From NCBI GenBank assembly GCA_025558075.1, contig JAHLKF010000005.1, positions 372,001 through 436,000 on the forward strand: DNA of 64,000 bases, in the 5' to 3' direction. The DNA is from Gaertneriomyces semiglobifer (lineage: Eukaryota; Chytridiomycota; Chytridiomycetes; Spizellomycetales; Spizellomycetaceae). Below the pieces are notes generated by a model, which did not search any database, was not told the DNA's origin, and worked only from the letters and a program-made list of their open reading frames with translations. This document shows, piece after piece, positions 28,890 to 50,816 of this stretch (the stretch's first letter is position 1; every line of letters starts with the position of its first letter). A program made the position numbers and the translations under genes.

Positions 28890-31800
28890 CTACTTCTTGG
28901 CTTTCCGGCTTTTACCCACGGCATGACGCCCAGTCTTAGCTCGCCTCTTCTCTTTCTCTTTCCGTTCCTTTGCAATTTGTGCGGGCGTTTTCAGCTCTTG
29001 CTTCACGGGCATTTTCTTATGTTTCTTAGCAGGATGCTGCTTGGCTCCTTCATCACCGCCGTCCGATGATCGCTTCTTTCTCATGCCCGCTGCTTCTGCA
29101 TCCTTTCGCCGCTGTGACCTCTTTGAATTCGGGTCCGCTTCTGTGACCGTTGTATGGCGGTATCGCCTTCCTGTCCGCGGATTAATCGCTGTCATGTTAT
29201 CGCTGAGAACGCGGGAATCCAATTCAGCCTCTCCGGCCTTGGGTAGATCCAACTTGGTTTTGTTTTTCCATGCCGTGAACCTTTGTGATTTGAAGCTCGC
29301 GTCGACAAGATGTCCGGATTCTAGCCGCATCTTTTTCTTGTTATCCTTCCCTATCGTGTCGCGTACAAAGTCATGCTTTTGGGAGTCCCATTTGAGGGGT
29401 GCTCGCTTTTTCATAAACGGATCATCCGTTGGCAATTCCAACGGCACCGCCGTTTGCGGGTTGAATGTTGCTGTAAGCTCGGAGAACTCTTTATCGGCAT
29501 TTTCAGCAGACATTCCATTGTCATCAAAGAATGTCGACATTGACGGCTGCTGCTGGGATTTCCGAAGCAAATCCTCTTGTGACCTTCTCAAAGCTTGTAT
29601 CTTCTCGCTCCTCTGTTCACGGTACTTGTCAACCGTATTGCCCACTACTCTACGCCTCTTTGCCATTAGAACTGCCTCCGCAGATTTCAACCCTCGTCGT
29701 CCGGTTTCAAAAACGGTTTCGTTAGGACGGAATCTGGAGAGTGCGACGAGTAGGTCCGCTTGGGCAAATTCATCTGATTTCGTGTCGGAATGGAACAAGG
29801 GATGAATTCCTGGGTTAGGCGATGTAAGGTGCAAGTCTTTGGCACGAGTATATGATTCCTTTGACGCTCCTGGCCGGGTTTTGGAGTATTTGCGGTACGC
29901 ATTTTCTGCGGACTCGTACATCGTTTGCAAATTCACATCACTGTGCAGTGTATTCTGCACATGCTCTGTGGACATTGACAGCGTCGGAATGGGGAAGGCG
30001 CCGTGAATCAACGTAGTCGTGTACGCGGCATGCGGGTCAAAGTCGGTGTTATCGGGGGTTATTGAGGATGAAAGAATGATCGGGCGAGAGGTATAAACGT
30101 TCAAATCCAACAAATACGGGAGTTCGTCCGGAGAAACGAGTGTATACGCTTTACCCGATCGTCCAGCACGAGCGACACGACCAACGCGATGTACAAATAG
30201 TTTAGTGCTCGGTGGGAACGACAGGTTAACCACGGAGTCGAGAAGCGGGATATCGATACCTCGGGCAGCTAGATCTGTAACCACAAGAATCTTTGTTTTT
30301 CCAGACCGGAACTTGTTGAGGTGCTGTGTTCGTGCGACTTGGTCTAATGCACCGTAAATGTACGTGGAATCAATATGCGCTGATGCCAACAGTGCATGTA
30401 TATATTCCACGTGGTGTTTTGTCGGCACGAAGATGACCGTCATCTCATCGGCGGTAATGACGTTGCTTTTGAAAAGCGTCAGCAAGCCTGCAGCTTTCTG
30501 CTCGTGTGTTGTCGCGAGGAAGTACAGATGCAGATCCGGCGGTAATTTACTATCCCTGTCGAGACGAATTAGCGCAGGATTGTTGAGTCCGGAATGCGCA
30601 AACTCCAATAATAGTGATGGGAGCGTTGCGGAGAAAAGAAGTCTCTGGCATGTCTCCGGCAGTTTGAACAAAATTTCTCGCAATTGTACAGCGAATCCCA
30701 TTTCAAATAGGCGATCCGCCTCATCAAAGACGACGTACTGCACGGTCTTAAGATCAAGGTTCATCTCAATGCATAAATGCATAAGACGACCGGGGGTGGC
30801 AATGATAACGTCCGGGTTCATAGCAATTGCAGTGAATTGCTCGTCCATGGATTCTCCACCGACGAGGGAACAAAAGCGCAAATCGGTAAATTTGGCCAGC
30901 TCTTTCAAAAATTTAAGAGTTTGAAGAGCCAATTCGCGAGAAGGTGAGAGGATTAATCCGCGGGCCCCCACTTTCGCTGAATGTGATTTCAAGCGTTCCA
31001 GTAATGGAATAAGGAAAGCAGCGGTTTTTCCAGAACCGGTGCGAGCCATGGCGATGACATCCCGACCCTGCATAATGATAGGTATGGCCTTTCGCTGAAT
31101 TGGCGTCGGCAATTTATACCCTTTTTGGAGGACTCCCTTATACGTATGATAGCTGAGTCCCATCGACTGGAAACCACCCGACTTTTTGTTTTTTCGGTTC
31201 GCAGTTTTGAGTTGCTCCGCAATCAGTCGCTCATCCTCTGAAAGATCCTCATCAGAATCATCCTCGGAGCTTTCATCGCTTGCTGAATCTTCCTGCCCGG
31301 AATCATCGCTTCCCGCAATGTCTCTCTCTGCTTCTTGTCCAGCATCATCGCCCGAGCCCCAATCATTATCACTACCCATTGCTTCATCCTGTTCCTCATC
31401 AGACAGCGATCCGTCCTCTATGTCAGACCCGCTCATCCAGCCCTCATCACTTTCGCTGTGATCACCGGGAAGCTGAAGGGCGTTGCTGTCAGGGACAACA
31501 GGTACGGTTTCAAAGTCATCGCTGTCATCGTTCTCTGCCGTCTCATTACGCTTCGAGTATCTATTTTTGTAGTGCTCTTTCTTTTGCTTTTGTTTTGCAG
31601 TTGCCGAGTTATCCTTTGCACCTGGCTTCCCACCTGGTTTCGCGCCTTTATCATCTTTGGAGGTCCGCTTCCCATTCTCCGTGCTATTCCTTGACCCTTT
31701 CTTCCCTTGCACAAACTTGTCAAACTGTTGCTCATGCTGCTTGCTGCTGCTGGATTTGTCCGCCTTATTTTTCTGTAACAGAGCCTTGCCTTTGCCAAAT

Positions 31801-31892
31801 GTATTTCTAGGCGGTGCTGGACTCTTTCCCATTCCACGACCTCCGCCCCCGCGGCTCCCTCCCCGTCCTCTACCTCTTCCTCTTGGACCCAT
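28890..31892 (-). CDS. DBP10: DEAD-box RNA helicase Dbp10 (DDX54), ribosome biogenesis
   Basis: Nucleolar ATP-dependent RNA helicase for 60S subunit assembly. Single exon, 1000 residues from the ATG at 31892; the frame upstream reaches only a TTG. Layout: a Gly/Arg-rich start (GPRGRGRGRGGSRG), a Lys-rich then very acidic segment (to about residue 235), and the helicase core from FQSMGLSYHTYKGVLQKGY (241 on) with Q-motif TPIQRKAIP, Walker A ARTGSGKTAAF, VFDEADRLFEMGF, LFSATLPS and HRVGRVARAGRSG. The DBP10-specific C-terminal region follows (GTDPFMKKRAPLKWDSQKHD-like stretch with WDSQKHDFVRD, then GRRYRHTTVTE) and a Lys-rich nucleolar tail. Strong antisense ORFs here are shadows. Confidence 0.95.
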   Translation of the reverse strand: MGPRGRGRGRGGSRGGGGRGMGKSPAPPRNTFGKGKALLQKNKADKSSSSKQHEQQFDKFVQGKKGSRNSTENGKRTSKDDKGAKPGGKPGAKDNSATAKQKQKKEHYKNRYSKRNETAENDDSDDFETVPVVPDSNALQLPGDHSESDEGWMSGSDIEDGSLSDEEQDEAMGSDNDWGSGDDAGQEAERDIAGSDDSGQEDSASDESSEDDSDEDLSEDERLIAEQLKTANRKNKKSGGFQSMGLSYHTYKGVLQKGYKLPTPIQRKAIPIIMQGRDVIAMARTGSGKTAAFLIPLLERLKSHSAKVGARGLILSPSRELALQTLKFLKELAKFTDLRFCSLVGGESMDEQFTAIAMNPDVIIATPGRLMHLCIEMNLDLKTVQYVVFDEADRLFEMGFAVQLREILFKLPETCQRLLFSATLPSLLLEFAHSGLNNPALIRLDRDSKLPPDLHLYFLATTHEQKAAGLLTLFKSNVITADEMTVIFVPTKHHVEYIHALLASAHIDSTYIYGALDQVARTQHLNKFRSGKTKILVVTDLAARGIDIPLLDSVVNLSFPPSTKLFVHRVGRVARAGRSGKAYTLVSPDELPYLLDLNVYTSRPIILSSSITPDNTDFDPHAAYTTTLIHGAFPIPTLSMSTEHVQNTLHSDVNLQTMYESAENAYRKYSKTRPGASKESYTRAKDLHLTSPNPGIHPLFHSDTKSDEFAQADLLVALSRFRPNETVFETGRRGLKSAEAVLMAKRRRVVGNTVDKYREQRSEKIQALRRSQEDLLRKSQQQPSMSTFFDDNGMSAENADKEFSELTATFNPQTAVPLELPTDDPFMKKRAPLKWDSQKHDFVRDTIGKDNKKKMRLESGHLVDASFKSQRFTAWKNKTKLDLPKAGEAELDSRVLSDNMTAINPRTGRRYRHTTVTEADPNSKRSQRRKDAEAAGMRKKRSSDGGDEGAKQHPAKKHKKMPVKQELKTPAQIAKERKEKEKRRAKTGRHAVGKSRKAKK

Positions 31893-33495
31893 TTTAGTTT
31901 CCTGTCCGTAGGTTGTCTGCCGGTGTGTGCCTGTGTATAATAAGAATCTCGAATCCGTTCGCTGATAATGAAACTGCAAAAACAAATTCAGTGGCTTGCG
32001 TAAGCGTCAAAGTCGCGACGTTCAAAGGCCGCGTAAAAGAATTGTGAAAAGGCGGACGCAACATACGTTCGTTCCAAAGAACAAATGCCAAAGCACTTCA
32101 ATTTGAGATGTGATGCTGGTGCGGTTGTGTGTGGGTCAGTCAGCGGTAGCATCTGGTGAACGTGCAATGGTGGATGTACAGCCTTGCACTCACCACTCAT
32201 CAGCCGGTTTTACCACGATTCTGGAAACTGTAGATGCACAACGGGATGCTAAATGATTTTGAATGATGTATGGCGGCTTCACTTCCAAATCCGCTGCTAC
32301 TGACCACCATCTGTTGTCTGGTTTGCGACAGTTTCTGTAAAACGCAGATGCCCAGAGGTAACTGTGCCATCTGACCAATTACTGACTGACCGACTACACT
32401 CCTGCATATCATACCCAAGCACCCTAACAGGGCCGTCTTTCGTATGTACGACTTGGTCTGCGTTGTTATCAGTGTGCAGAGGACTGCCTTCAATAGAAAG
32501 CAGCTTTGCAAATTCGGCGCACCTTGCAGTTGCATCGTATATCCATGCATCATTGCATGTCTCACAAAGTTGTTGCAGGTGTCGGAGAGCTCGGACTCCA
32601 GAGCCTCGTCGGGATACTATATACGTGGAGCTATGTGCACGAACAGCAGCTTGTCCACATAAGCGCCCTTCTGAACCGCTCGTAAAAGGCCAGAAACGAC
32701 CACCACACGTCCAATTTTGGGAGACGCCTCCATCCCATGTTACCCGTTTCAATAGCATTGCAACATTGGACATCGCTCGCAGACCAATTGATATGGACTT
32801 GCGGCGACGATGAGAAAATTAACGAGTCGAGTTGTTCGACGCGCTTTGACAGGTCTGAACATGAACAGGTCGTTGCGCAGAACAGCGGTAACAGCGGTGA
32901 ACGGCAAGGCACACACACTGAAAGTACCACCCATCACTTGCCCATTTCTCCTACATATGGTATCTGCACTTGTTGATGGACACGCTCAAGGATACAGCAC
33001 CCGCCTTTGGAACCACCTGCGCAGCCAGTCTGGGATTGCAGGCGCGCGAAAGTAATCCAGAGTTCCGCAGATGGGGTGCTATGTACAAGTACGGGCAGGC
33101 TCGGATTACCCATCAGACGAGTTGGCGCGAGTGAATAGAGAGAGACCTGCGAGGAGGCATTTCACTCTTGGTCTCCCGAAGAACAGATGCTGGGCAGTGG
33201 TCATCGCGGTCATCAGCGACTGAGCTGAGGGGGCTTTTGTGACTGAATCATCATCATCACTCACAGATCGCAATCTACGGGAGGGAAAGCCAGCGGGGCT
33301 TTTCCCAACCAGGTTAGTAACTAGTTCCGGTTGCCGTCAGATCGCTTCGCTTCGCAACATTCCTAGTCTCGTTGAGAGTACGTCACTCATACGCGTGCGC
33401 GTAAGTGCGCTGCCAGGAAGTGTTCGCTGTTCAGGAGCTATATAAAAGAGTGTGCTACAGGATCTTTGTTGGGCTCGTCTACCATTGTGTTCATC
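31893..33495. other. Gene-poor 1.6-kb interval with overlapping unassigned ORFs
   Basis: Longest stretch without a recognised gene. A minus-strand ORF of 158 codons (32297-32773) overlaps a plus-strand ORF of 149 codons (32364-32813). Neither has a known motif, and no clear splice partners were found. They may be chance, a decayed gene or an orphan gene. A region near 33240-33480 precedes the dehydrogenase gene and contains its TATA box. Confidence 0.4.
33441..33447 (+). promoter_or_regulatory. TATA box of the short-chain dehydrogenase gene
   Basis: TATAAAA, within TATATAAAAG, 55 bp upstream of the ATG at 33496. Spacing allows a short leader. Confidence 0.6.
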
Positions 33496-34674
33496 ATGGC
33501 ACGATTCGCCGAAATGGCCTTTTCAGTAGCACCCTTTGTGAGAGGGCTGGTTATGCTGGCCTCTCCATTTCTCTCGTTGTGGGACTGGCTGTCAAATACG
33601 ATCTCATGTTTGCTTTCGTACCTTCTCATTCCCTTTGGCGGTCCCTTTCCACTGCCATCTCAAAAGCCCGGCACGGACTGCATCCGCTGCGTACTTGTCA
33701 CAGGAACCTCGGCAGGATTAGGTCGCGAGATAGCTCTGCGTTTGGCTCGTCAAGGGTTCACCGTTTTTGCCGGCGTGCGCAAAGAATCGGATGGTACCTC
33801 ATTGCTAAAGGAGTACGCTACGACGGAGAAGAATCTGTCCAAGACAAGGAAAGGTCTCCGAGAACCTCTGGTTAAAGATGTGCAACAAACGCACAAAGCG
33901 ATTGTACCGGTGTTGCTGGACGTTACGGACAAGAGCGCCATAGCTAAAGCTAGAAACGATGTTGAGCTGTATCTACGCTCCCACAATGCTCTGCTTGCTG
34001 GCATCGTTAACAATGCCGGCATTATTGACATCGCCCCGTTGGAAATTGCTGCTGACCATGAGATTAGAAGGGAATTTGACGTCAACTTCTTTGGTGTCAT
34101 CGATCTCTGCAAAGCGTTTATACCTCTACTCAAACAGTCGAAAGGTCGGATCGTCAACATCGGCAGCGCCGCTGGCTTTATCGCCGTGCCCAGCACCGGA
34201 ATCTATTCAGCCAGTAAAGCTGCTGTAGGAATCGCTACAGAAGCACTCCGTATGGAGCTGCGTCCCTTTGGGGTAGGCGTCTCTCTGATTGAACCCGGTT
34301 GCATCCGTAGTCGGGCATGGGATGTCGGTTTAGAACAGATAAAATCGTACAACAAACCGTCCACTCGAGCTCCAAAAGGCCAATCCGGAATCTCTTCCGA
34401 AGGTGACTTTGTGGACCCAGCTGCCAATACAGACGCCCGTACCATTAGCGAATACCGACCGCTCTTCAAGCGCTTTGAGTTCTTGTTCAGTTCAGCCTAC
34501 GTCCTCGCCTTTCCGCCCAAACATGTCGCTTACCAGGTCGAGCATGCTTTGACCAGCCGGTATCCCAGAAGCCGTTACCTTGCTGGTGCAGATGCCAAAA
34601 TCGGCATGGTACTCTTTACCTATTTGCCTAACAAGGTTATCGAAGTAGGGGCACGTTGGCTTCTATGGTCATAG
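33496..34674 (+). CDS. Membrane-anchored short-chain dehydrogenase/reductase
   Basis: Single exon, 392 residues. The start at 33496 is the first ATG after the TATA box. The N-terminal ~55 residues are hydrophobic (VRGLVMLASPFLSLWDWLSN, TISCLLSYLLIPFG), giving one or two membrane anchors. The Rossmann domain has the cofactor motif VTGTSAGLGREIA, LDVTD, the NNAG motif (VNNAGIIDIAP), catalytic Ser in NIGSAAGF and the YSASK Tyr/Lys pair. The C-terminal extension with a hydrophobic segment suits retinol/11-beta- or 17-beta-hydroxysteroid-type SDRs acting on lipids at the ER. The substrate cannot be named. It lies upstream of and on the same strand as the large heme-flavin fusion gene, which could indicate a shared pathway, but the 708-bp gap excludes a single transcript by spacing alone. 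Confidence 0.88.
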   Translation: MARFAEMAFSVAPFVRGLVMLASPFLSLWDWLSNTISCLLSYLLIPFGGPFPLPSQKPGTDCIRCVLVTGTSAGLGREIALRLARQGFTVFAGVRKESDGTSLLKEYATTEKNLSKTRKGLREPLVKDVQQTHKAIVPVLLDVTDKSAIAKARNDVELYLRSHNALLAGIVNNAGIIDIAPLEIAADHEIRREFDVNFFGVIDLCKAFIPLLKQSKGRIVNIGSAAGFIAVPSTGIYSASKAAVGIATEALRMELRPFGVGVSLIEPGCIRSRAWDVGLEQIKSYNKPSTRAPKGQSGISSEGDFVDPAANTDARTISEYRPLFKRFEFLFSSAYVLAFPPKHVAYQVEHALTSRYPRSRYLAGADAKIGMVLFTYLPNKVIEVGARWLLWS

Positions 34675-35382: not shown

Positions 35383-38300
35383 ATGCCACCCTCGGTGCTT
35401 CAGGTCAGCTGCCCGGAAGCGAACACTTATGGGGGCATTGGGCGCACCGATACCCTCTCTAGCACGAGATCCTCAGGAAGCGCTGTATCACGGGCAAGCA
35501 GTGTCGTGAGCGGTTCATCATCAAGATGCCCCATGCCCGGGCGCATCGGTCCAAGAGGTTGTGCATTCTCTGCCTTTTCCCAATCAGGCCAGGATGCCCT
35601 TTACGGTGCTCCTCAAGGCCCAAATGCGCCCGCTCAGATTTTGTCTCAGGACCGTAAGACATTGATCGACGTGCTTTTGGCAGAAGCCCCTTCCGCGAAA
35701 GATACCAAAAGCATGAAAAATGCGGACAGTCTCAATCCTGTGAGTCAAAGCCATGTTCCTGTACAGTGTTATCCAACGGATATTGACTTTACTTCAATTT
35801 CAGTCGGAGGATGATTTGCTGGCAATAGCGCTTGGTGCTCCTGCAAGAAGAGTTTTGACTCGATGTGATGCCATTGGTCCACGCACAGGTTGGCGGGACG
35901 GTTACCTTTCCACTCGATATGGATTCATTCCACCCGACCCGAACGCGTCGCCTACGGCACTCCTCCAATCTCCGGGTCGAGTTTGGTCAGACCTGTGCTC
36001 CCGGCTGCCTGGTTTGGTGCCTCGTGGAAACGTCCGCGTACGAATTCTTGACCTCCCTTTCATAGAGGGCTCTCCGGAGGTAATACCAGACCAAGCATTG
36101 TGGGCCGCTTGTGTTTGTCTCGGCATTTTAGCCAGTACGTGGCGCTACGAAGAAGCGAATGATGGCCGCGAAGGAATTGTCAATGCAGCAACGTCCCCTG
36201 GGACATTTTTGAATGCCGCTGGAAACCTGGACGAAGAGCCGGAAACTAGAGGACTTCCGCGTAACATTGCGATTCCACTTCGTACGGTGTGCTTGCGCCT
36301 GGGCCGCCCGCTGCCTTTTCTCTCCCAATCAGATGTCTCGATCTACAACTACAAGCTTCGCGATCCAACTTCAGTGGTTCCCTACCCCGAACGAGCAGAA
36401 AATATGGATTTGCGCTGGCCTGTTTTCAAAGATCGTAGCGAAGCCATGTTTTTGCTCTGCATGGCTGAAGTTCATGGCTGCTTTGCTCCCGCTGTGGACA
36501 TTATTGCATGCTGTCAAGAGTGTGTGATGGAACGGGATAATGAACGTTTGGTATACGAGCTAGTGCGCCTGAGACAGGTCATCGATCAACTTCCGCACAT
36601 ATTTCACAAAATCAGCGTCAATCCCAGCTCTGGCGAGAACTTTGCTCATCCAGTTGAGTGGGGACAGCGCTATGCCAAGTGGTCTGCACCCCTGTCCAAG
36701 CGGGTGCCAGCGCTGTCCGGCTTGTTCTTACCGCTTTTCCAGTTGATGGATGTTTTCCTTGGGCGGACGAAGTATGATTCATTCCTGGGATTAGAGAGTT
36801 TACATTTGAGGCAGTGGATGCCACCCGCCATTCGCGCTTTTTGTGCCGCCATCGAGCAATATTACAGTGTTCCTGACTTTGTCAAGGCTTCTGGTGATCC
36901 GCGCCTTGTTGCAGTTCTTGAGGGGCTTGTCGAGAGTTACACCGGTGAACGAGGCTTCATGGGCACGCATCGATACAAGGTGTACGGCTTTCTGGAGGTT
37001 GTTGCCAAGACTGGTCGTGTCGAAACAAATGGAGGCGCTGGAAGTATGGATACTGCTGGCCGGCCGTGGGAACAAGTGCATCGAACTTTGTCAGATTCCA
37101 TGTTGGAACGTTTAGAGCCTTACCGCAGCGCAACGCTGACCGTGGCACCACATGACATGCGCGGCTCGTTTGAGGAGTGCCGCTTCAAAGCTTGTATTCA
37201 CGCCAGAACAGCCATTGACCGAGATCCCTCTCGAGCTACCTGCAAGGTTACGATCGACTTGCGTGACACGGGTATGACGTTTCAGCCTGGGGATCGATTG
37301 GCCATTATGCCCTTAAATCCTTGGTTGGATGTCGAGCAGACTGCGCAAATTCTTCAACTTGTGGACATACTCGACCAGAGCGTTCCTTTGCAAGGTTCCG
37401 CGCCTTGGATGAGGTTTGCAAGACATATAGGTGAGGTTTATCGTGATAAACCTTTACAGTTAACTGTACGCGATATTCTTCGCCGGGGCCGGCTGAGCCC
37501 CCTTTCGAAGGAGATGGTCGCTTGGGTAAGAACTTCTACATAGTCCACATTTTTGAGATCCATGACTTACATCTTCAACAGGTTCATTCTCAGACACGAT
37601 CCGCATCGCCGAGGTTGCACGCGATTTTGAGCTCGTCGACTTGGCCCATCATGGCATCAATAGCAGACCTACTCCACACCATTCGCCCCGAAGTACCTGA
37701 CAACGTTTGGAATCGCGCATTTCCAACGACGGAACTGTCCTGGCTATGTCCGCTGATCTCGATCGAGATTCCTAGGACATACAGTATATCGTCATACAGT
37801 GCGGACGAATGGATGCCGGGGCAACTCGACATTACCGTCGCGAGGGCTGCGCACCGCATCTCCGAATTAGTCAATGTTGCAGGTGATAGTTCCCACCTAC
37901 GATTGAGACCAGGGGTTTGCAGCAGCTTTCTCAACCCGCACCCGACCACACGTCTTCCTCATCCGCTTATTCGCGGTAACGATCGTGAAGAGATTCTCGT
38001 AGGTCTTTCACGCCCTTTAAACTTCCAGCTACCAGCTTCCAAAGCGGCTCCTATTCTGATGTTTGCCGGTGGTTCGGGCATTGCGCCTTTCCGAGGTTTT
38101 TGGCAAGCACGGTGTCACGAGGAATCGGTTGGACGCAATGTTCTTTTCCTTGGCGTTCAATCGCGAGAGAAGCTTGTATATTACGACGAACTCGTGGAGC
38201 ACGTTCGCGATGGGAAGCTGGAACTGCATGTGGCGTTTTCAAGAGACACAACAGGACTAGTGTACGACCCTTATTCACGCGAGATGCGGGAACGTCCAGG

Positions 38301-40056
38301 TACCACGCCATCGTATATCGATTCTAAGATTACTGAGCAAGGGTCAACAATCTGCGACATCCTGATGTCAACGACAATAGGCGGCTATGGAGGATATTTG
38401 TATATTTGTGGCTCTGTCGCCCTTTACGATACAGTCATGTCTGCGCTTCGTAGGGCCATCTATGCGTGCCGAGCTACTACCGCGGAAGCTACATCAAAAA
38501 TTTTGGATATGGCTTTCGCCGAACGACGTCTGATGCTGGATATATTCATGACACCGAGGCCGGTTTGCGAAAGTGACTTCCCGATCATTACTCCATCGCA
38601 GCTCGCGCAGTGCACCGGCCATCGAAGCAGTGGTGAAAGCTCAAGATATTGGATTGGCGTCCACGGGCGCGTGTACGATGTCACCGAATTTTTGTCCATT
38701 CATCCGTAAGTATCTTGTCTGATGCATATGTCATGCGGCGACTGATCAGTTCATTTGAGCAGTGGTGGATCGTTGATTGTAGCTGCTAGCGCTGGGATGG
38801 ATGCATCACGTACTTTCGATGAGGTCGCTCACACGGGCAACCCGGAGGTCTCCGCGCTACTCGCGAAATACTTCATTGGGGTTTTGGCGCCGAAACCAAC
38901 TTTCCGCAACAACATCATAAGCGATCTATACGACACGTGGTACGATTACCTGCGCACATGCGTAGAAAACCTCACGACGCTTTCCTTTGAGGTGTCGGCG
39001 CTGATGGATGACGAACGGGTCTGGTCCGCTGGTGGCCTGATTAACATTACAGGCGTCCGGAAATTCTATCAGTTCCAATCAAGACTGCTTCAAAATGGAT
39101 TTCCTACACTTTTTGGTAGTCGCCTGAACGAGCTGCATCTCAAATTGACTTTTGCGCTTCTTCAATCACATGCCACAAATCAGATGGTTCCGGACATAGT
39201 GGGCAACGTGTCGCGAGCGCTATCGTCTCCGCCTGCTGTGCGTACGCGGAATGCGATTGCACAAGTGGGTGAATTTGTTGAGGATACCGGCTCGGCACTT
39301 GCTTTCGAAAAAGGCATCATTTCGTATGCCAAATCGGTCACGGAAATTGACATCCAGTTCTTGGAAAAGATTCGCGGTGAAATTTGCAATGGCATGGACG
39401 TGTTCTACAAGATTCGAGATCGGCGAGGTACCGTAGGGGACAAACACCTCACTCGCAGCGTAGCGCTCGCTTTGTTGACGTGCTTGGAACGGGTCTCGCA
39501 GAGATTACAGAACTTTTTCACCGATCTTGCTGCTCGTTCGCCAATAAACCCACGCTTGGAGAATAACCCAGCCAGGGGCTTTTGGGGCATGGTCGCACGT
39601 CGCATCCGCGATGGCTCTTTCTTTCTGTACACGAGCGATGAAAATGTGGTTGAAGATGGGTCGGCATCCTCAAAGACTCGCTTCATCCATCGTCAAAGCA
39701 TTACCGTCGCTCAATTGGTCAACCAGAGCGTTGATAGTATTTCTGCGTCTGGAGTTCAAAGTGAGCTTAAAGGGGAAACAGACTTCAAACCCCGTAGACT
39801 TGCGGATGCACATCTACAGCGTGGCAAGATGAGTCGAATCGGTACATCATACGATGAAGCGGTTAACAGGAACGCGTCGAAGCGTATGTCGACATTATTG
39901 GCAATGAACTGGCAAGGAGCCGTTCCCGTTCGAAACCAGTCGGCGACCGCGGAAACAAAAACTCGTCAGAAGTTCGCCGAAGGACGCGGAAGTCAGTTAT
40001 TCTCGGTACCGATGTCACCCACTGGCCGGATTGTTTCGATAGGACGTGCAAATTGA
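35383..40056 (+). CDS. Fusion: IDO-like heme domain + FAD/NADPH reductase + cytochrome b5 + helical tail
   Basis: Four exons (35383-35739, 35804-37525, 37582-38705 and 38763-40056) join to exactly 1499 codons. Residues 1-119: Ser-rich, with two Cys-Pro pairs (C10-P11, C49-P50). 120-560: indoleamine 2,3-dioxygenase fold, with LPLFQLMDVFLGR, WMPPAIRAFC (457-466) and the candidate proximal heme ligand His508 in GTHRYKVYGF. 580-1000: ferredoxin/P450-reductase-type module, with PGDRL (614-618), the FAD motif RTYSISS (758-764) and the NADPH motif GGSGIAP (856-862). 1049-1112: cytochrome b5, YWIGVHGRVYDVTEF, with heme ligands His1067 (HPGG) and His1091, spaced 24 as in classic b5. 1115-1498: helical, unrecognised. 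There is no FMN/flavodoxin domain, so electrons probably run NADPH-FAD-b5-IDO heme. The IDO substrate region around the GW motif differs from true IDO, so tryptophan may not be the substrate. It follows an SDR gene. Confidence 0.85.
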
Positions 40057-40167: not shown

Positions 40168-41424
40168 TTAATCTCGCCAATCATCCCAATCTCCCAGCGC
40201 CGCAACGTCAATGTTCATACTGGCACATATTTCCTTCATCGTCAGCAAGCGAGGTTCTTCGGTGTGTGAAGATGAGGTCTGTAACGACGTTCGCGCACCA
40301 GAGGTATCGTGGTCGTCCCAACCCCATGGTACGTGTGAGTTGTTGATGGTCTCGAACGGCACAATGGTAGGACCCATTGAATTTCGTAGGCGCGTAAGCG
40401 CTTCGCGCGCTGCCGTTCGCCATTTATTGGTGAGAGAGTCTAGCGTTTCCGCCTCGTTCTACACGCAAAGATAAGCGAGTGCACTGTGTTCGAATCTCGA
40501 CAACCGCTCTAAATCACACCTTTTCCATGTGGCTTTGGAGCAGCTTCAATCGCCTATTCCGAAGTTCTGCTTCTAGTATTTGCTTTTCCACTGCTGCTTT
40601 CTCATTAATAAGAGTTTGCGTTTCATCATCGTAGGCAACCCCTAGGGCTCCTACTCGTGGGGAAAGAGGTTCTGAAGGTACAGCTGCAGCGTGTGGTTTG
40701 GCGAATGGAGACTTGAAAGGCTTGTGAACCGCAGACACCCGCTTCTGTGGAGTGCGGGTTGGCGATTGCGCAGGTGGCGGTATTGATGCAGAATGTAATT
40801 TGATGGGTGTAGGCATGGGAGATAATGGAAGGAAGTTGCGCGCTTTAAGGGGAGACTTGAACGCTTTGAACCGTTTGCTCACCGGTGTAGTTTCAGGTGT
40901 TGCTGACTAACAGTGATGTTGATGAATGAGAAACGTGATACCAACCACGGCGTAATAAAATATCATTCATACATGCAACGGTCGCTTTGACACTGGCGTA
41001 GGTGGCAGCGGGGTTAATGGTGCGTTGATTGCTGAAGGCGGCGTCATTGATGGCTGGACAACACGACGGGTAACGGTATCATTCATTGCTTCGGTGGTAG
41101 TTGAGAACGCGCCTATCCAATAGACTTTGCTATCATTTCCGTCCAGGTTGAGCGTCTTGCACTTTAGCACTCTGCGTTCAACGAGCCTATCTACCAGGGC
41201 CTGTACACAATGCGTCAGTTAAGCTGAGGAACGAATACCAACCTCAGGGAATGGATAGAGCCTACCGATACTAAAGGTCCCGCAGTGCGAGTTCCATGTT
41301 CAAGCACGACCAAGATCTCGTCCTCCAAAAGCGGGTTGGCAATGCACCCGTTCCGTTGACACAACAACTTTACCAAGCACAACTCTGCTAAGGACTTTAC
41401 ATCTTTGACAGTTCCCGAGGCCAT
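40168..41424 (-). CDS. SFR1: Swi5-dependent recombination factor Sfr1/Mei5 with N-terminal winged-helix-like region
   Basis: Rad51/Dmc1 accessory factor acting with Swi5 in homologous recombination. Exons (minus): 41424-41266, 41200-40973, 40906-40520 and 40458-40168, giving 354 residues in frame. The C-terminal third is the Sfr1/Mei5 domain: a coiled coil (INEKAAVEKQILEAELRNRR), LDSLTNKWRTAAREAL and the closing LTMKEICASMNIDVAALG. The middle is disordered and carries repeated basic FKSP motifs (FKAFKSPLK and HKPFKSPFAK), likely Rad51- or DNA-contact sites. The first ~95 residues form a compact helical plus beta-hairpin pattern (ALVDRLVERRVLKCKTLNL then KVYWIGAF) like a winged helix, which I do not associate with Sfr1 elsewhere. 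The exons connect cleanly at phase 0, so the fusion is supported but needs cDNA. Confidence 0.8.
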
Positions 41425-42645: not shown

Positions 42646-44084
42646 CTACGACGACACCTCGGCGGTATTCGAAAGCTCCCCAACATTAGAAATAGTGTGT
42701 AACTGCTCTTGGGACCCAGGAGCTTCTGCCCTTCTAACATCGCCTTCTGCATCTTGTTGCACGGCTTGAGAAGCCGCTGCGCGTGCCATCAGAGCCTCAT
42801 GCGCCTCACGTAGGCTAGTTTCCAAATTGGTGACGCGACGCCGAAGATCTTGTTCACGAGCCGAGAATATTGCACGTTCCTTTTCAACCACAGCGAGTTT
42901 TAATGAAAGCTGAGAATTGACTGCTTCGAGATGCGCGACCTGTGACTCCAGTTGTTGCATTCGCAGTGCTTTTCTCTCGCGCGACCGGCGCGCAGCTTCT
43001 GTGTTCCTACGACGTTTCTGCGCAATTTCGTTTTCAAGATCGGACAGTGGTTTGGTCTCCCCAGAAGGCAATCCACCAAGTGGCGTGCTCTGAGATGCCG
43101 GAGGTGTAATGCCGCTCGACGAGGTCAAATGATCGTCTGCGGCTGACGGTGAGGTCGGAGAAGGAATGGTAGGTGCATTCCCTTGAGCGGATGTTGAGGA
43201 TGTTGCGGGAGGATCGTAAGGCTTTGACCGTCGCCTGGGAGCGGACGCTCTTCGCACGGGGCCCGCGGCACTGGCGGGAAACGTTGTGGACGCCGGTGGA
43301 GGGTGAATTCCCATGGCCAAAGGCGGCAGCGTGGTGGTAGCATGCTGATACTGCGCAATCGCATGTTGATGAACCGGAGAGTAACCGGGATGGTGGGGAT
43401 AACTAGACGTATGATCAATGGATAAGATAGCAGGATCCATTACAGTAATGCCGGAGGCATCTGGGGTATCGGCGTCAGAGGCTAGTTTAAAAGTGGCAGG
43501 CGAAGCGAGTGAGGGTGGAAGATGGGGCGGGACAAGGACATGCGACGACTGCTCGGTAACCCCCGACACTATGTTTCAAAGCAGAGGTCACTACTGTTGT
43601 CGCGGTAAATCCATCAGAACCAGCACCGGAACTTACATTTTGACGCGTCCTTCCGGTCCAAAAACATGGCAGCGCCATATATCGTGCTGATACCATCCCA
43701 AAAGGACGGCAAGGATGGAGCTGGCCCGGAAATGCTCGCAGCCGTCGCATCAACACGGGCCTGCCCGTCAACGCCATGACCAGGTATTGTTACTTGCGGT
43801 TGGTTGCCAATGGGCATATACTGGTTCTGCAACTGCGACTGTGGTTCTATTTGTGATTGTGGTTGCGGTTCTGTTTTACTTTCGCGCGTTTGCGGTTGCT
43901 GCTGTGCTTGCGGCTGCTGCTGGTCGTTTGGTGACGAGTAAGGTAGGTGTCGTTGGGATGCGGGCGTTCGCATAAGCGGTAGTGCAGCAGCCTTGGAATC
44001 TTTTTCTACTACAGACTGTTCTGCGCTGGACCTCTGTCTGTCCTCCTCTTTCAGCAGTGGTGACCGTTGTGGAGATTCCATCAT
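42646..44084 (-). CDS. bZIP transcription factor, Gcn4/CPC1-like DNA-binding domain
   Basis: Two exons (minus), 44084-43637 and 43568-42646, give 456 residues. The start is the first of two adjacent ATGs. The N-terminal region is Gln/Pro-rich (QPQAQQQPQTRE; PQPQSQIEPQSQLQNQ), typical of activation segments. The basic region near residues 333-352 reads RRRNTEAARRSRERKALRM; its NTEAARRSR core is identical to that of yeast Gcn4, so it should bind TGACTCA. The leucine zipper follows (QLESQVAHLEAVNSQLSLKL, continuing to EKERAIFSAREQDLRRRV). The role may be amino-acid starvation control or a related stress response. The rest of the protein is not clearly Gcn4, so no symbol is given. A TGAGTCA site lies 240 bp upstream. 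Confidence 0.85.
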
Positions 44085-44516: not shown

Positions 44517-45098
44517 CTATCTAACGGCGGTAAGGGAATCTGCGTGCAACAAACTACATGTTGTCGGGTGCAGTAGGTCGAGCACAGGTATCATATGAAA
44601 GACCCAGCAAAGCGGGTTATCCAGTCACAATCTAACAAGCAGAGTGCCTTTGCCAAACGCTGAATGAATTGAATGTCCCCGGTTTGAACAGCGTTCGCAT
44701 CAAAGTTATTACTCCGCAGCTGTGTTCATGGCTCCAGTTTTGAAGGCCGCCGTCGGAAATTGGGCGCGTCAAAAATAGGCGCAAGAAAATCCGGCGGGGA
44801 GGCAAAAGCCCATTACGACTTGGATTAGCAGCCAGAGCTACGTTGACCATCCACCACCATACCCAGTAAGACACAGTAATACAGCACCGCATTTAGGAGC
44901 AGAAGCAGCAGCAGAGACAGGACGATAATTAGCTGCTACTGTTCTTTACTGCTGGTCAGAAAGTCTGCCGTGTGCATTCGCTCTCCCAGTGTGCAGGGTC
45001 GGGTGTAATGGTTGGCATACTGGGTGTTGTATATAGGGGATAGGAACAGGCAGATAGAACATATATAATAGAAAGTACATAGGTCAAACTTAACAGGA

Positions 45099-48000
45099 AT
45101 GCTGAGTGGCGAGCATGGCGCGGATGCCGCTACTGCTGATGAGCGCATAGAGCCGCATGAGAAGTCGGCAGGCAATGTTTCCGACCCAACCGCCGAGATA
45201 GAGCAACTTCGCTCGCTGCTGGCAGCAAAGGATCAACAGTTAGAAGAAAAGGATAAAGAAGTCGAAGAGCTTCGCAGTAGCATCCAAGGAGCAGAGGATT
45301 ACATATCGGGGCTCGAAAGCGAAGTGGACAAATGTTTGAAGCTGAGCGAGCAGGTGGAAAGATTAGAAAAGGAACTGGAACAAGCACGCAACGGACATGA
45401 TGCCGACGATGCGATTGAAGCCCCGTCCATATCGCACCAACGTGGTGTTAGCGATAGGAGTATCTTGGACCATGATAGCTTCGTAACTGTGGATGAGGGC
45501 GGTTCGTCTACTTTGCGGAGACCTCGCTCGGCTTCTTCTCTTCGCGCGGCCGTAGACGAACTTTGGACCCAGCTTCTTGACCATGAAATCCGGGCAGCAG
45601 AGATGATTGATACGGACGATGATCTAGCCGTCAGAAAAGAAGTTGCCACAAAGCTGAAGGCCATGCAGACCGAGCTCTCCAAAGAGGGCATTGACGCTGG
45701 CCAAGTTGACGGTGACGTTGATCGATCGTTAACGCTGCCAACGCCGGAACACAAGACTGAACTTGACGAAGCATTGCAACTCCGCTCGGACGAGAATGAT
45801 ACTCTGCGGAAGGAGTTGGAAGCAGCCAAGGCAAATGCTGCCGCTCTTCGTGACGAACTAGATGGCATGCAAAAGGATGCTGACGACCTTGCTCGTGGGC
45901 TTGATCAAGGTGTAAATGCTGCTCGGCAAGAAGCCGACGCTCTACGCATTCGAGTCGCCGATTTAGAATCGTTGTTGGAAGAAGCGAGCTCACGTGCAGT
46001 TCCAGATTCAGACGCTACGTTCACATTGCGTATTGAAGAACTGGAAGGGTTGAGACGGAAAGATGAAGAATTGATTCGCTCACAAAAGGAGGAGATTGCG
46101 CTGTTGGAACAACAAATTGAGCAGGCAGAAAAGGCTGTTGAAGAGTTCGAGACAAAGTTTGTCGAGTTTGAGCAACGCCGCGAGTCCGAAACAGCCAATT
46201 TCATGGAACAAATTCAAGCATTAGCTGCCGAGAAAGCAAACACTGACCAAAAGCTGTTAGAAGCTAACGTGGAAACGGACCGATTGCGTGATCAATTACG
46301 CTCTCATGCCGACATGCGCGACATACAGCTTCAGGGAGAACAGGAGCTTAAGGTTGAACTGGACTGGCTTCGTAAAGAGCTTGAAACCACAAAGGTTGAC
46401 ATGGAAGCGAGCCACGTGGCTGAAATTGAGTCCAAAGCGAGTGAACTCACGGTATTGTCGGCGCGGGTCAATGAACTGAGCGATGAATTGAAATCGCAAC
46501 AAGATGTGGCTCAGAAATCAGCAGAAGACGTTACAGGCATGCAAACTCGCTTGGCGGACAGTGAGGAACAGAATCGTACCCTGTCCGAACACGTGACGGA
46601 ATTGACTAAGGAGTTGGCAGAGGCGCGCGAAAGGGCTACCCAACTGGAGAGTTCCATAACGGAAACGGAAGAAGCAAAAGATCGTGCTTTTGAAACCTTA
46701 ACAGCGAGTTATCAAGAAGTACAACTGTCAGAACAGCAATTACGCGATAAGTGCCAAGATCTGGAGAGGCAACTGGCAGAAAAAGAAGGATTCGCTGCTG
46801 CCGAAGCTGAGCAATCGGCGGCCAGCGTACTTGCGCTGGAAACTTCCAAAGCACAAGCAATAGCTGAGGCTGAACAATTGCGTCATCAACTCGCGCGCTT
46901 GGGAGAGGACAAGGACAAGGTCGAGAGAGAAAAGGAGCACTTGAAGCTTCAGCTGTTGGAATTGGAAAATGAAGTTACCCACTTCAAGGAAGCAAGTGAA
47001 GTGGACCTTGAGAATGCGAACGCGCGTATTGAAGAGTTGTTAGCGCAGTTAACAGGAATATCCAGCGAACAAGAGGCTGCCGTAACGGAGGTTCAACAAA
47101 AGCTGGCAGATGCCCAAGCTGAGTGTGTTTCTGCGAAGGAGCGATTACTTGAGCAAGAAGCTAGATTTGAACAGTCTTGTTCCACCAATGCAAAGATTCA
47201 GGAGGAGTTGGAGCAGAGTTTAACGCAAGTCGAGCAGCTCAAAGCGAATGTCGTAGAGTTGCAAACCGCCAGAGATATCCTCAAGGGTAAAGCTGAGGAT
47301 ATATCTCGCGAGTATGTTGCGGAGAAGAATCATGCACAACAGTTGGAAGGTGAAATTGAACAGCTCCGATTGCAGCTGCAGGACCACGAGCGCTCGAGAG
47401 ATTTACTTGATCAACAGGATAACGTCCTTCTTGATAAAGCCAACGCTCAAATTGCTAGCATGCAACGCGAGTTGGAAGAACGAAATGAAGAGTTACACAC
47501 TCTCCGCGCATCTCTGACCGTTGCTGATACCAGTTCTCGGGAGCTCGCGTCAAGAGTGGAAATGCTGGAACAGGACAGAGATGGTCAGGTGGGCCAAAAC
47601 ACCGCTTTGACCGCTCGCGCACAGGCCTTAGAAGAGACTATTACTGCTCGTGACCACGAACTACTCGGCTGTAAGACCGCTATCCAAGATCTGGAAACGG
47701 CTTTAGCGGAAAAAAGCGCAACCCTCGAAAGTATAAATAACGACCTTGTGTCTCGTGGTGCAGCATTGAAGGCGAAGGAGGATGAAGTTGAAGCACTCTC
47801 GTCACAGGTTCAAGCTTTTGAGACTGAAATAGGGACTCATGCACAGCAGTTGAATGAATTGCGTGACAAGGTTGGTAGTCTGCAAGATGCCCTAGTCAGT
47901 GCTCAGCAGGAGCTGGAAGTGCGTCAAGCGGAGCTGGACAGCCAGAGGAGCGTTTCAAGCAAGTCGTCTGTTGAACAGGAAGAGGTCGTTGGTCGTCTTC

Positions 48001-50816
48001 GGGAGGACCTGGATAGCCGGATCAACGACATCGCTACCCTCACAGAGCGAATCGCCCTGGCCGAAGCAGAACGTCAAGCCGCAGTGCAGTTGCGTAGCGA
48101 ACTTGAGGCGGAGCGGGAGAATCATCGTAGCCTACAAGATGATTTTGAAGCGTTACAGCAACGCGTGCAGCTTATCACCACGGAGTATGACAAGGCTATT
48201 GAAGATAAGACAGCGCTGGAGGCCGAATTGGGCTCACGTGAGGCAGCCACGGAGAATATTCAGATCTTGAATCAGAAACTTGCTACGACTGAGCAGGACC
48301 TGCAGCAGAAAGCGGAGGCTCTTAGCAGCGTGCAGTCGAATTTGGAAAATCTTCAACGCGAACGCGAGAACGCAGAAACGCAGTTAACTGAAGCACATTC
48401 TTCAGTCGAAGAGCTTGAGACAATTGTGCAAAATCTCAGGACTCAGCTCTCACTAGCCTCGTCTGATTCGGAAAATGAATTGCGCGGGGAACTTGAAGCT
48501 GCTATTGCCAAGGTAGAACAACTAACGGTCGACCTCGAGTCGGCTCGAAACGATCGTGACCGCGTGGCGGAAGAGTCTCTCAAGGCCACCCTTAACTTAC
48601 GAAAAAGGATTGCCGAGCTTGAGGAAGAACGGGATGTGCTGCAGGAGCCGGTTACATCCTCCCGGAATATCTCGGATGATGATCAAACTGAGATGAATGA
48701 CGAGCTGCTTTCTAAACATGAGGCGAAGGAAGCAGAGGTGCAAGAGTTGCAGGCAAGGGCAGTCGAGTTAGAGAATGCTGCCGAACGGTTGCGCGTTGCC
48801 ACTGCAACACATGATACCGACAGGGCAGAAATTCAGGCTATGCTGGATGCACGCAATGTTGACGTAGCTCATTTACGCGAGGAGGTCAACGACTTACAGC
48901 AACAACTAAGGCACAGAGACGAAGCTGTTAACACTTTGAAACAAGAGCTTGCAGGCTTAGAGGCGGAAGTTCAACAGAAAGTAAGAAAGCAGGTTGAATG
49001 TGAAGCGGAGGCTGCTGCGTCCATATCAGCGCTAAACAACTTGGTGCATGGTCTTGAGGAGACGGTGCGGACGAAAGATGCTACACTTGTTGAGCGTGAA
49101 CAATCGCTTGAAGGAAATGAGCGAACACTCCAGACCGTGAGGGAGCAAAACGAGTCGCTGATAGCTCAAGTGCAAGAATTGAGTCATAAGCCGACGACTG
49201 CGGAGGTCGGGACTGAGATTGACGATAGTCAAATGAGCGACATATTACAACTCTACCGTAAGCAGATAGCCGAGGTGGTTTCCGAGCGGAAGGCCCTGCA
49301 GTCCCAATTGGATTCATTGCAGGAGTCCTGCAACGGTTTAAACAAAGACACAGAGTCACTTAGAGCGCGCGTCGCCGAATTGGAAGGGGAAGTCGAAAAG
49401 CGTGGTGAACTGCAGAAGCAATTGGAGGCAGAAGTGACTCGCCTACAAGCGGCATTACAAGAGGCTGAACGTGAACCTTCTCCGCCTAGCTCACCATTCG
49501 ACGAGGAAGATGACCGTGGAAGATCGCGTGATAGTAGGTACGCTGGCCGTAGCCTTTCCCGTCATCGGGGCAAGAGCGGGGTCAGAAGCGTGAGCTCTAG
49601 ACGAAGCGGGACCCCCACTCCAATGTCTCCTATATCGATCATTGACACGATTCGCGAATTGGCCATTGGCGGGGAGGCTCAACAGGGTGGAGCAAATGGA
49701 GTAGATGGTATTGCTTCTGAGCCCTCGGGCACCGGGCTGCCAGAGCGCGAGCGTCAGGAATTACTTCGGATGATTGAAATACTTTCAATGCACATTTCTG
49801 CCGCGGACGAGCAATTAGAAGAAGATCGTGAAACAATTGCGAGATTGCAGGCCTCATTAGAAAGTGCACGCCGAGTGTCTTCTCTTGCTGGCAATGGCGA
49901 GACTATGACTGGAGGTAACGACACCACGACTGCTCGGATGAAGTTGCTGCAAGCCCGCGTTGATGCGCAGTTAGACGAGATTGCCAATATGGAATACGAA
50001 ATGGTCAAGGCACGAAGCCTGGCGAAGAGCGCACAGGAACGGGTGACAGAGCTGGAGGCGGTCGTCAAAGAACAGAAGCATCAACTGGCGAAGGCTCGGA
50101 CTTCATCTCCAACGGCAGCTAATATTGGAAATGGCCAAACGAAGACTAGGCGCAAGGATCGAAATGTGGGAACATCGACTCTGAGACTGACACCGGGTGA
50201 AATGCGTGAAATTTTGCCAAGTGTCATGTACGACGAGTTGACCAACGGGCCCCGGCGCGGGAGTTCCCGCTTGCTTGGCGATAGTTCCGGACGGAGGGAG
50301 AAGCGCGGTTCCGCTGCGCCTTCGGTACCCACCAAAGAAAAAGAGCGTGCCACGCCGACTAGCGGGCCGTCGATTAATCAATTGTTGGAGGAAACTCAGC
50401 AAAAACAAAAATTCATTGGCGAGCTCGGACAAGAGCTTTCTGCATGTCGTCGTCACATCCGGGAGCTGGTGCAGGAGATGGAGAATCTCAAGACTGAAAA
50501 CGATGCACTGAAACGTAGTCTTCAGCAGTCTGTCGCACGACCACAGACTCCGCCATTGGCAAGAGCAGAGTTGAGACCGCTGTCCTCATCGGACAGTCTT
50601 CGGGAAGGAAGGCATCCAGAGCCAGTTGCTGCTTTGCCGCCGCAACAAAGGGCGTCTCGTAGGCCACCCATCCCAAGAGAGTTGTCAATGCCACCAGCTC
50701 CTCCGTTACTGCACATCGATCCATCCATAAGGTCAAGACCTGTTGTTGAACGACATGAATCCAGTCCTGTCAAGAAAAAGAAGGCCTTCTGGTGGACACG
50801 AACTGACTCCAGATGA
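45099..50816 (+). CDS. Giant coiled-coil protein, 1905 residues
   Basis: Single exon. After an acidic N terminus, residues about 25-1450 are almost continuous heptad coiled coil (for example LRSLLAAKDQQLEEKDKE; LEELLAQLTGISSEQEA-type blocks), rich in Glu, Gln and Leu. The C-terminal ~430 residues alternate disordered basic or Ser/Pro-rich segments (DDRGRSRDSRYAGRSLSRHR, TPTPMSPISIIDTIREL) with shorter coiled coils, and end in a basic SSPVKKKKAFWWTRTDSR. LRLTPGEMREILPSVMYDEL, near the start of the last third of that tail, looks like a conserved non-coiled motif. The overall plan suits a tether or scaffold (golgin, spindle-pole or septal type), but coiled coils are poor evidence of homology and I do not name it. 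An upstream in-frame exon cannot be ruled out. Confidence 0.85.
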   Translation: MLSGEHGADAATADERIEPHEKSAGNVSDPTAEIEQLRSLLAAKDQQLEEKDKEVEELRSSIQGAEDYISGLESEVDKCLKLSEQVERLEKELEQARNGHDADDAIEAPSISHQRGVSDRSILDHDSFVTVDEGGSSTLRRPRSASSLRAAVDELWTQLLDHEIRAAEMIDTDDDLAVRKEVATKLKAMQTELSKEGIDAGQVDGDVDRSLTLPTPEHKTELDEALQLRSDENDTLRKELEAAKANAAALRDELDGMQKDADDLARGLDQGVNAARQEADALRIRVADLESLLEEASSRAVPDSDATFTLRIEELEGLRRKDEELIRSQKEEIALLEQQIEQAEKAVEEFETKFVEFEQRRESETANFMEQIQALAAEKANTDQKLLEANVETDRLRDQLRSHADMRDIQLQGEQELKVELDWLRKELETTKVDMEASHVAEIESKASELTVLSARVNELSDELKSQQDVAQKSAEDVTGMQTRLADSEEQNRTLSEHVTELTKELAEARERATQLESSITETEEAKDRAFETLTASYQEVQLSEQQLRDKCQDLERQLAEKEGFAAAEAEQSAASVLALETSKAQAIAEAEQLRHQLARLGEDKDKVEREKEHLKLQLLELENEVTHFKEASEVDLENANARIEELLAQLTGISSEQEAAVTEVQQKLADAQAECVSAKERLLEQEARFEQSCSTNAKIQEELEQSLTQVEQLKANVVELQTARDILKGKAEDISREYVAEKNHAQQLEGEIEQLRLQLQDHERSRDLLDQQDNVLLDKANAQIASMQRELEERNEELHTLRASLTVADTSSRELASRVEMLEQDRDGQVGQNTALTARAQALEETITARDHELLGCKTAIQDLETALAEKSATLESINNDLVSRGAALKAKEDEVEALSSQVQAFETEIGTHAQQLNELRDKVGSLQDALVSAQQELEVRQAELDSQRSVSSKSSVEQEEVVGRLREDLDSRINDIATLTERIALAEAERQAAVQLRSELEAERENHRSLQDDFEALQQRVQLITTEYDKAIEDKTALEAELGSREAATENIQILNQKLATTEQDLQQKAEALSSVQSNLENLQRERENAETQLTEAHSSVEELETIVQNLRTQLSLASSDSENELRGELEAAIAKVEQLTVDLESARNDRDRVAEESLKATLNLRKRIAELEEERDVLQEPVTSSRNISDDDQTEMNDELLSKHEAKEAEVQELQARAVELENAAERLRVATATHDTDRAEIQAMLDARNVDVAHLREEVNDLQQQLRHRDEAVNTLKQELAGLEAEVQQKVRKQVECEAEAAASISALNNLVHGLEETVRTKDATLVEREQSLEGNERTLQTVREQNESLIAQVQELSHKPTTAEVGTEIDDSQMSDILQLYRKQIAEVVSERKALQSQLDSLQESCNGLNKDTESLRARVAELEGEVEKRGELQKQLEAEVTRLQAALQEAEREPSPPSSPFDEEDDRGRSRDSRYAGRSLSRHRGKSGVRSVSSRRSGTPTPMSPISIIDTIRELAIGGEAQQGGANGVDGIASEPSGTGLPERERQELLRMIEILSMHISAADEQLEEDRETIARLQASLESARRVSSLAGNGETMTGGNDTTTARMKLLQARVDAQLDEIANMEYEMVKARSLAKSAQERVTELEAVVKEQKHQLAKARTSSPTAANIGNGQTKTRRKDRNVGTSTLRLTPGEMREILPSVMYDELTNGPRRGSSRLLGDSSGRREKRGSAAPSVPTKEKERATPTSGPSINQLLEETQQKQKFIGELGQELSACRRHIRELVQEMENLKTENDALKRSLQQSVARPQTPPLARAELRPLSSSDSLREGRHPEPVAALPPQQRASRRPPIPRELSMPPAPPLLHIDPSIRSRPVVERHESSPVKKKKAFWWTRTDSR

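Follow-up and report, generated by a model that had tools for sequence, protein, structure and literature searches.

Why a fungal heme protein should carry its own electron supply is the question raised by one gene at positions 35383..40056 (+ strand) in a 64,000-nucleotide stretch of the genome of Gaertneriomyces semiglobifer, a chytrid of the Spizellomycetales (contig JAHLKF010000005.1, positions 372,001 to 436,000; this whole stretch is called the window below). We consider it reasonably probable that its product is a self-sufficient heme oxygenase built on an indoleamine 2,3-dioxygenase (IDO) scaffold, in which electrons would pass from NADPH through FAD and cytochrome b5 (b5) to the IDO heme, and whose substrate is probably aromatic. 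This reading builds on the content and order of the domains, an IDO fold obtained by structure prediction, conserved ligand and cofactor residues, and a wide spread among fungi.

Gene structure and domain architecture

Three GT-AG introns were removed from the gene and the translation was followed to a single terminal stop. The four exons (35383-35739, 35804-37525, 37582-38705 and 38763-40056), separated by introns of 64 nt (35740..35803), 56 nt (37526..37581) and 57 nt (38706..38762), close in frame to a chain of 1498 amino acids; these and all other features of the gene lie on the + strand. A public G. semiglobifer protein, P0001, is letter for letter identical to residues 51-1498 of the spliced chain (1448 residues), so the public model, itself a predicted protein and not a cDNA, uses the same introns. 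A Pfam search of the whole chain recovered four families, all above their curated cut-offs: IDO (residues 154-390, 3.5e-17), FAD_binding_1 (580-649, 2.4e-8), NAD_binding_1 (853-973, 7.1e-8) and Cyt-b5 (1045-1109, 1.4e-14). No fifth family was found at E<=1. An earlier reading made from the letters alone (the sequence-only reading) had described four exons closing in frame to 1498 residues and the same domains; the spliced frame with its one stop, P0001 and Pfam all agree with it. A Kyte-Doolittle scan of the chain in 19-residue windows gave a highest mean of 1.68, with the top six windows all inside the IDO domain, and showed no terminal membrane anchor.

Occurrence of the fusion in fungi

The family search scored 8000 candidates and retained 376 proteins at E<=1e-3; counts out of 120 given throughout refer to the best 120 of these 376, P0001 included. 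A chance origin of the fusion is excluded, because so many proteins were retained at this threshold and because 114/120 carry all four Pfam domains. When genera were assigned to phyla, the 120 comprised 2 chytrids, 17 Basidiomycota, 76 Ascomycota and 25 proteins without an organism name. One relative, P0085, comes from Podospora comata. The four-domain protein is thus found in Chytridiomycota, Basidiomycota and Ascomycota, as the sequence-only reading had suspected when it supposed related fusions in other fungal genomes, and is not special to the Gaertneriomyces genome. In the databases it is called, among other things, 'sulfite reductase flavoprotein alpha-component', 'Nitrate reductase [NADPH]', 'NADPH--hemoprotein reductase', 'related to nitric-oxide synthase, salivary gland' and 'indoleamine 2,3-dioxygenase'. 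A conserved fungal protein, predicted to be an oxygenase, has been hidden in the databases under such misleading names.

IDO-like heme domain

The heme domain (residues 120-560, limits set by us; 35804..37126) matched the Pfam family IDO (PF01231) with 62.7 bits against a gathering cut-off of 26. The match stops short of the full profile, spanning 7-211 of its 412 positions; for the second half of the domain, support comes from a PDB profile match and from the predicted structure, in which a two-domain IDO fold extends across most of the 441-residue slice, at 21-22% identity to IDO. By this prediction the N-terminal half has the IDO fold, on the very point where the sequence-only reading had said it could fail. 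The IDO and b5 parts are the most conserved regions of the fusion family, and the motif GTHRYKVYGFLExxxKTGRxETNG characterizes the family in the IDO part. The candidate proximal heme ligand, His508 in ERGFMGTHRYKVYGFLE (36968..36970), is histidine in 119/120 proteins, sits in a predicted helix (385-402 of the IDO slice) and is paired by MAFFT with His346 of IDO1.

Substrate site

In IDO1, Arg231 binds the tryptophan substrate, and Ser167 also has an active-site role. When the fusion was aligned to human IDO1 with hhalign, Arg231 fell on Val403 within FAHPVEW (residues 399-405; 36641..36661), and across all 120 fusion proteins the columns 399-405 of this register contain no arginine. Ser167 fell on Met339, a column occupied by M in 52, C in 51 and V in 17 proteins. 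The divergence of the substrate region, already remarked upon from the letters, is therefore borne out at the Arg231 place, in one alignment register.

The same genome also contains two ordinary IDO genes (L001, L002, L003 and L005, at G000:C1:1127320-1129085 and C32:62375-63172). Both loci keep the Arg231 equivalent, with RVRTY and HFRTF in that region. At the proximal and loop positions, one resembles human IDO1 with RDRHL...GTGGT, the other reads RHRHW...TATGGSP, and the fusion has ETNGGAG. Because a third, divergent IDO copy is kept beside two ordinary ones, the sequences slightly favour a substrate other than tryptophan for the fusion. It is a divergent member of the IDO family that should not be labelled 'tryptophan dioxygenase', since the key substrate arginine was not found at the aligned place.

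The strongest of the alternatives is an L-tryptophan 2,3-dioxygenase that carries its own reductant, in which the reductase and b5 would only rescue the ferric heme and the product would be N-formylkynurenine. The IDO fold predicted over most of the slice is consistent with it. According to the cited passages, the resting form of IDO1 seems to be ferric, and the enzyme is supported in vitro by P450 reductase with or without b5 (preprint PMC13142367), and b5 has been suggested as the physiological reductant of IDO (PMC4191572). However, two IDO loci of the ordinary kind, bearing the motifs given above and the Arg231 equivalent, are already present in the genome, and the fusion itself has ETNGGAG and no Arg at that place. 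We regard this alternative as unlikely.

Reductase module and cytochrome b5

After the heme domain, residues 570-845 (limits set by us; 37154..38037, split by intron 2) make up the FAD-binding and probably a connecting domain, and residues 846-1016 (38038..38550) the NADPH-binding domain; the former is supported by Pfam and PDB chains and the latter by Pfam. The FAD motif RTYSISS (residues 758-764; 37774..37794) is conserved at R758, Y760 and S761 in 119/120 each, and in its length the FAD region is compatible with a retained connecting domain. In the NADPH domain the motifs are GGSGIAP (856-862), AFSRD (911-915), YICGS with Cys969 and LDIF with Phe1015; G857, S858, G859, S913, R914, D915, C969 and F1015 are invariant (120/120). 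SRD and an aromatic residue behind LDI are features of cytochrome P450 (P450) reductase and nitric-oxide synthase (NOS) as well, and they point to NADPH. When PDB chains were compared (the best 60 of 113 matched sequences), the top chain was the sulfite reductase flavoprotein 1ddg (2.6e-17), followed by P450 reductases, NOS reductase and cytochrome b5. Across the full chain, Pfam found no FMN (flavodoxin) family at E<=1. Pfam, the PDB matches and the motif positions agree on the reductase with RTYSISS and GGSGIAP, lacking an FMN domain, that the letters had suggested.

The b5 domain (residues 1045-1109; 38635..38886, split by intron 3) is supported by its best PDB b5 chain (6.4e-14) in addition to Pfam. 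Both heme ligands predicted earlier, at a spacing of 24, are conserved: His1067 in HPGG (38701..38703) is H in 118/120 with 2 gaps, and His1091 (38830..38832) is H in 120/120. With an IDO-fold heme, a P450-reductase-like module and b5 in one polypeptide, the electron supply to IDO-type enzymes becomes directly testable.

Proposed function

We infer from this architecture which cofactors are bound, the path of the electrons, the reaction, the kind of substrate and the role of the C-terminal tail. NADPH would reduce the FAD of a P450-reductase/NOS-like module whose FMN domain was lost or never present, and the FAD would hand electrons singly to the covalently attached b5 next in the chain. The b5 would then hold the IDO heme ferrous, or supply electrons to it during turnover. 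O2 bound at the ferrous IDO heme could be activated toward a probably aromatic substrate, which would be held otherwise than L-tryptophan is in IDO1, and the helical tail may hold the parts together, dimerise or dock a partner. If electrons were consumed in each turnover, a monooxygenase would be possible; if they only repaired autoxidised heme, the enzyme would be a dioxygenase. Histidine-ligated relatives are described as oxidising aromatic substrates in the cited part of PMC11791213.

Several observations weigh against this proposal. The b5 follows the reductase and does not lie between it and the IDO domain, so that contact between b5 and the IDO heme is presumed, and the IDO heme might instead take its electrons directly from the FAD. 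The conserved Arg408 (110/120) is close to the Arg231-aligned site, and MAFFT leaves the human Arg231 segment in a gap, the Arg231 register coming from hhalign. For the proximal ligand, the ungapped HMMER alignment pairs Met505, not His508, with IDO1 His346, and hhalign stops at Phe504 in the same register. Conservation and the MAFFT pairing speak for the earlier suggestion of His508, and the HMMER/hhalign register places Met505 there; His508 is the favoured candidate for the proximal ligand. The role of P450 reductase and b5 for IDO1 in vivo is called still unclear in the cited part of PMC13142367, and in that of PMC11791213 neither P450 reductase nor b5 led to product formation by PrnB, an IDO relative. 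The self-sufficient oxygenase role itself is read from sequence and a predicted fold.

Whether the fusions form a new class, namely naturally self-sufficient, histidine-ligated heme oxygenases with an IDO fold, their own NADPH-FAD-b5 chain and their own substrate, which are old, shared by chytrids and Dikarya, duplicated in Ascomycota and misnamed, seems to us evenly balanced.

N-terminus and C-terminal tail

P0001 starts at Met51 and omits residues 1-50, whereas the longer reading starts at Met1. The N-terminal segment (residues 9-62; 35407..35568) contains two Cys-Pro pairs and GPRGCAF, a motif common to family members. GPRG[C/S]xF was found within the first 200 residues of 66/120 proteins; upstream of it, 56 of these 66 have two Cys-Pro pairs, 6/66 have one and 4/66 have none, the public model of the Gaertneriomyces gene being one of these four. 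The Met1 start fits the family better than the public Met51 start, because the longer N-terminus has two Cys-Pro pairs and GPRGCAF, as in most GPRG-bearing relatives. By its sequences, the fusion family has a conserved Cys-containing motif at the N-terminus, in which the Cys-Pro pairs may be a heme-regulatory motif.

At the other end, residues 1111-1345 (38890..39594) form a conserved helical tail bundle that belongs to no Pfam family, lacks a significant fold match in the PDB and turned up here only in IDO-reductase-b5 fusions. It is followed by a poorly conserved and partly disordered stretch (residues 1346-1498; 39595..40053) with a mean identity of 26.7% over 117 aligned sequences and lower pLDDT.

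Both ends would suit a non-catalytic heme sensor, in which a redox, heme or O2 state is relayed via the reductase and tail and the Cys-Pro pairs are heme-regulatory: two pairs lie upstream of GPRGC in most GPRG-bearing members, and the tail is conserved and belongs to no enzyme family. Yet an intact and highly conserved NADPH/FAD/b5 chain would be costly for a sensor, and the Cys-Pro motif is very short and weak by itself. A sensor seems to us decidedly improbable.

Comparison with known systems

Compared with IDO itself (IDO1/IDO2 and the fungal IDO alpha/beta/gamma; PF01231), the fusion adds a reductase, b5 and the tail. It is also only 21-22% identical, lacks a counterpart of Arg231 in the hhalign register and has M, C or V at the Ser167 position. 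Its likeness to the HDAO superfamily consists in the predicted IDO-type fold and the expected histidine heme ligand; oxygenation of aromatic substrates is described for that superfamily, with no fused reductase mentioned, in the cited part of PMC11791213. In the assays of the same source, PrnB was not driven by P450 reductase or b5.

The fusion is, judged by its domains, not a P450, not a NOS and not a diflavin reductase. Self-sufficient P450s (P450-BM3/CYP505 and CYP116B) unite an oxygenase with an NAD(P)H reductase on a single polypeptide, as the fusion does, and by analogy the fusion may work like P450-BM3. No P450 Pfam family, and hence no heme-thiolate domain of this kind, was found in it at E<=1; it differs further in that no FMN domain was found and that b5, the would-be one-electron carrier, sits at the other end of the reductase. 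It offers biocatalysis a putatively histidine-ligated counterpart of P450-BM3, one that may work without an added partner or dye. With the diflavin reductases (P450 reductase, sulfite reductase flavoprotein and NOS reductase) it shares FAD_binding_1, NAD_binding_1, RTYS, SRD, Cys969 and Phe1015, but their FMN domain was not found in it by Pfam. In nitrate reductase, Ncb5or and cytochrome b5 reductase, b5 receives its electrons straight from an FAD-NAD(P)H module; the flavin module of the fusion is instead of the P450-reductase kind, and its proposed final acceptor is an IDO-like heme.

The relation to NOS bears on another alternative, a small-gas enzyme (an NO dioxygenase, an O2/NO-responsive enzyme or one resembling NO synthase) whose IDO pocket would admit diatomic ligands. 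The order heme domain-FAD-NADPH resembles that of flavohemoglobin and NOS, and the salivary gland NOS label is attached to the fusion in Serendipita indica and Cephalotrichum; fungal NO biosynthesis is, in the cited passages, not clearly resolved (PMC10889981, PMC4929157). But the common type of reductase accounts for the label, Pfam gave no match to a NOS oxygenase or a globin at E<=1, and a gas would not require strong conservation of the whole IDO pocket, which leaves a slim chance for such an enzyme. Membership of the NOS family was rejected, as there is no NOS oxygenase match and the heme half is IDO. That two or three adjacent genes were merged in the gene model has next to no probability and was rejected, since splicing is in frame, the public model is identical over 1448 residues and the same fusion recurs, four domains included, in three named phyla.

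Fused oxygenase-reductases are already known, while the IDO-reductase-b5 combination is apparently new and apparently unstudied. A search of open-licence PMC texts found no paper on such a fusion among the matches listed (titles and abstract openings), and the cited parts of PMC8082767, PMC6013588, PMC4595289 and PMC10269595 contain no word on it. As to a possible link with the fungal 'NOS-like' knockouts, the Neurospora genes that match Magnaporthe NOL2 and NOL3 best are NCU05185 and NCU05006 according to the cited part of PMC4948021 (Table 1); no conclusion about the fusion is drawn from them, and the cited part of PMC4778047 adds nothing on this link.

Descent of the fusion family

In a midpoint-rooted FastTree of the 120 proteins, the two chytrids pair (support 0.978), the 17 Basidiomycota form one clade (1.0) and 68 sequences form one long-branched clade (1.0) with altered pocket residues 339 and 343. 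The sequences speak for a duplication of the fusion within Ascomycota, because three species hold paralogues inside and outside the 68-sequence clade: Leptodontidium sp. 2 (P0021/P0050), Amniculicola lignicola (P0038/P0072) and Paraphoma chrysanthemicola (P0035/P0110). We read the descent suggested by the tree as mainly vertical, although P0030, P0031, P0040, P0043 and P0052, which the midpoint root leaves together with the chytrids and Basidiomycota, speak against a clean species tree.

In the G. semiglobifer genome, matches to IDO, FAD_binding_1 and b5 fall within one gene only at C5, the contig of the window, among the matches listed. An IDO-only search gave 109 proteins of 242-712 residues, many of which resemble exon pieces of the same fusion; 15/109 were taken into the IDO alignment (A4). 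No ordinary stand-alone sister was recognised among these 109 matches, which were not inspected one by one. A contig scan for prokaryotic relatives with alignment A4 and two short patterns gave 102 matches, 0 of which were confirmed by tblastn, a scan that distant relatives might escape.

Genomic neighbourhood

The genes around the fusion show no sign of a clear metabolic cluster, and neither ARAGORN (bacterial code) nor Rfam (gathering threshold) gave a match in the window. A short-chain dehydrogenase (33376-34674, + strand) lies 0.7 kb upstream of the fusion, with a Dbp10-like DEAD-box helicase carrying a DBP10CT domain further upstream (28890-32006, - strand). Directly downstream are three short frames, probably exons of one gene (40168-41218, - strand), followed by a bZIP protein (42646-43575, - strand), a long frame with a coiled-coil look by eye (45072-50816) and an amidohydrolase (51416-52594), which we take to be possibly a guanine deaminase.

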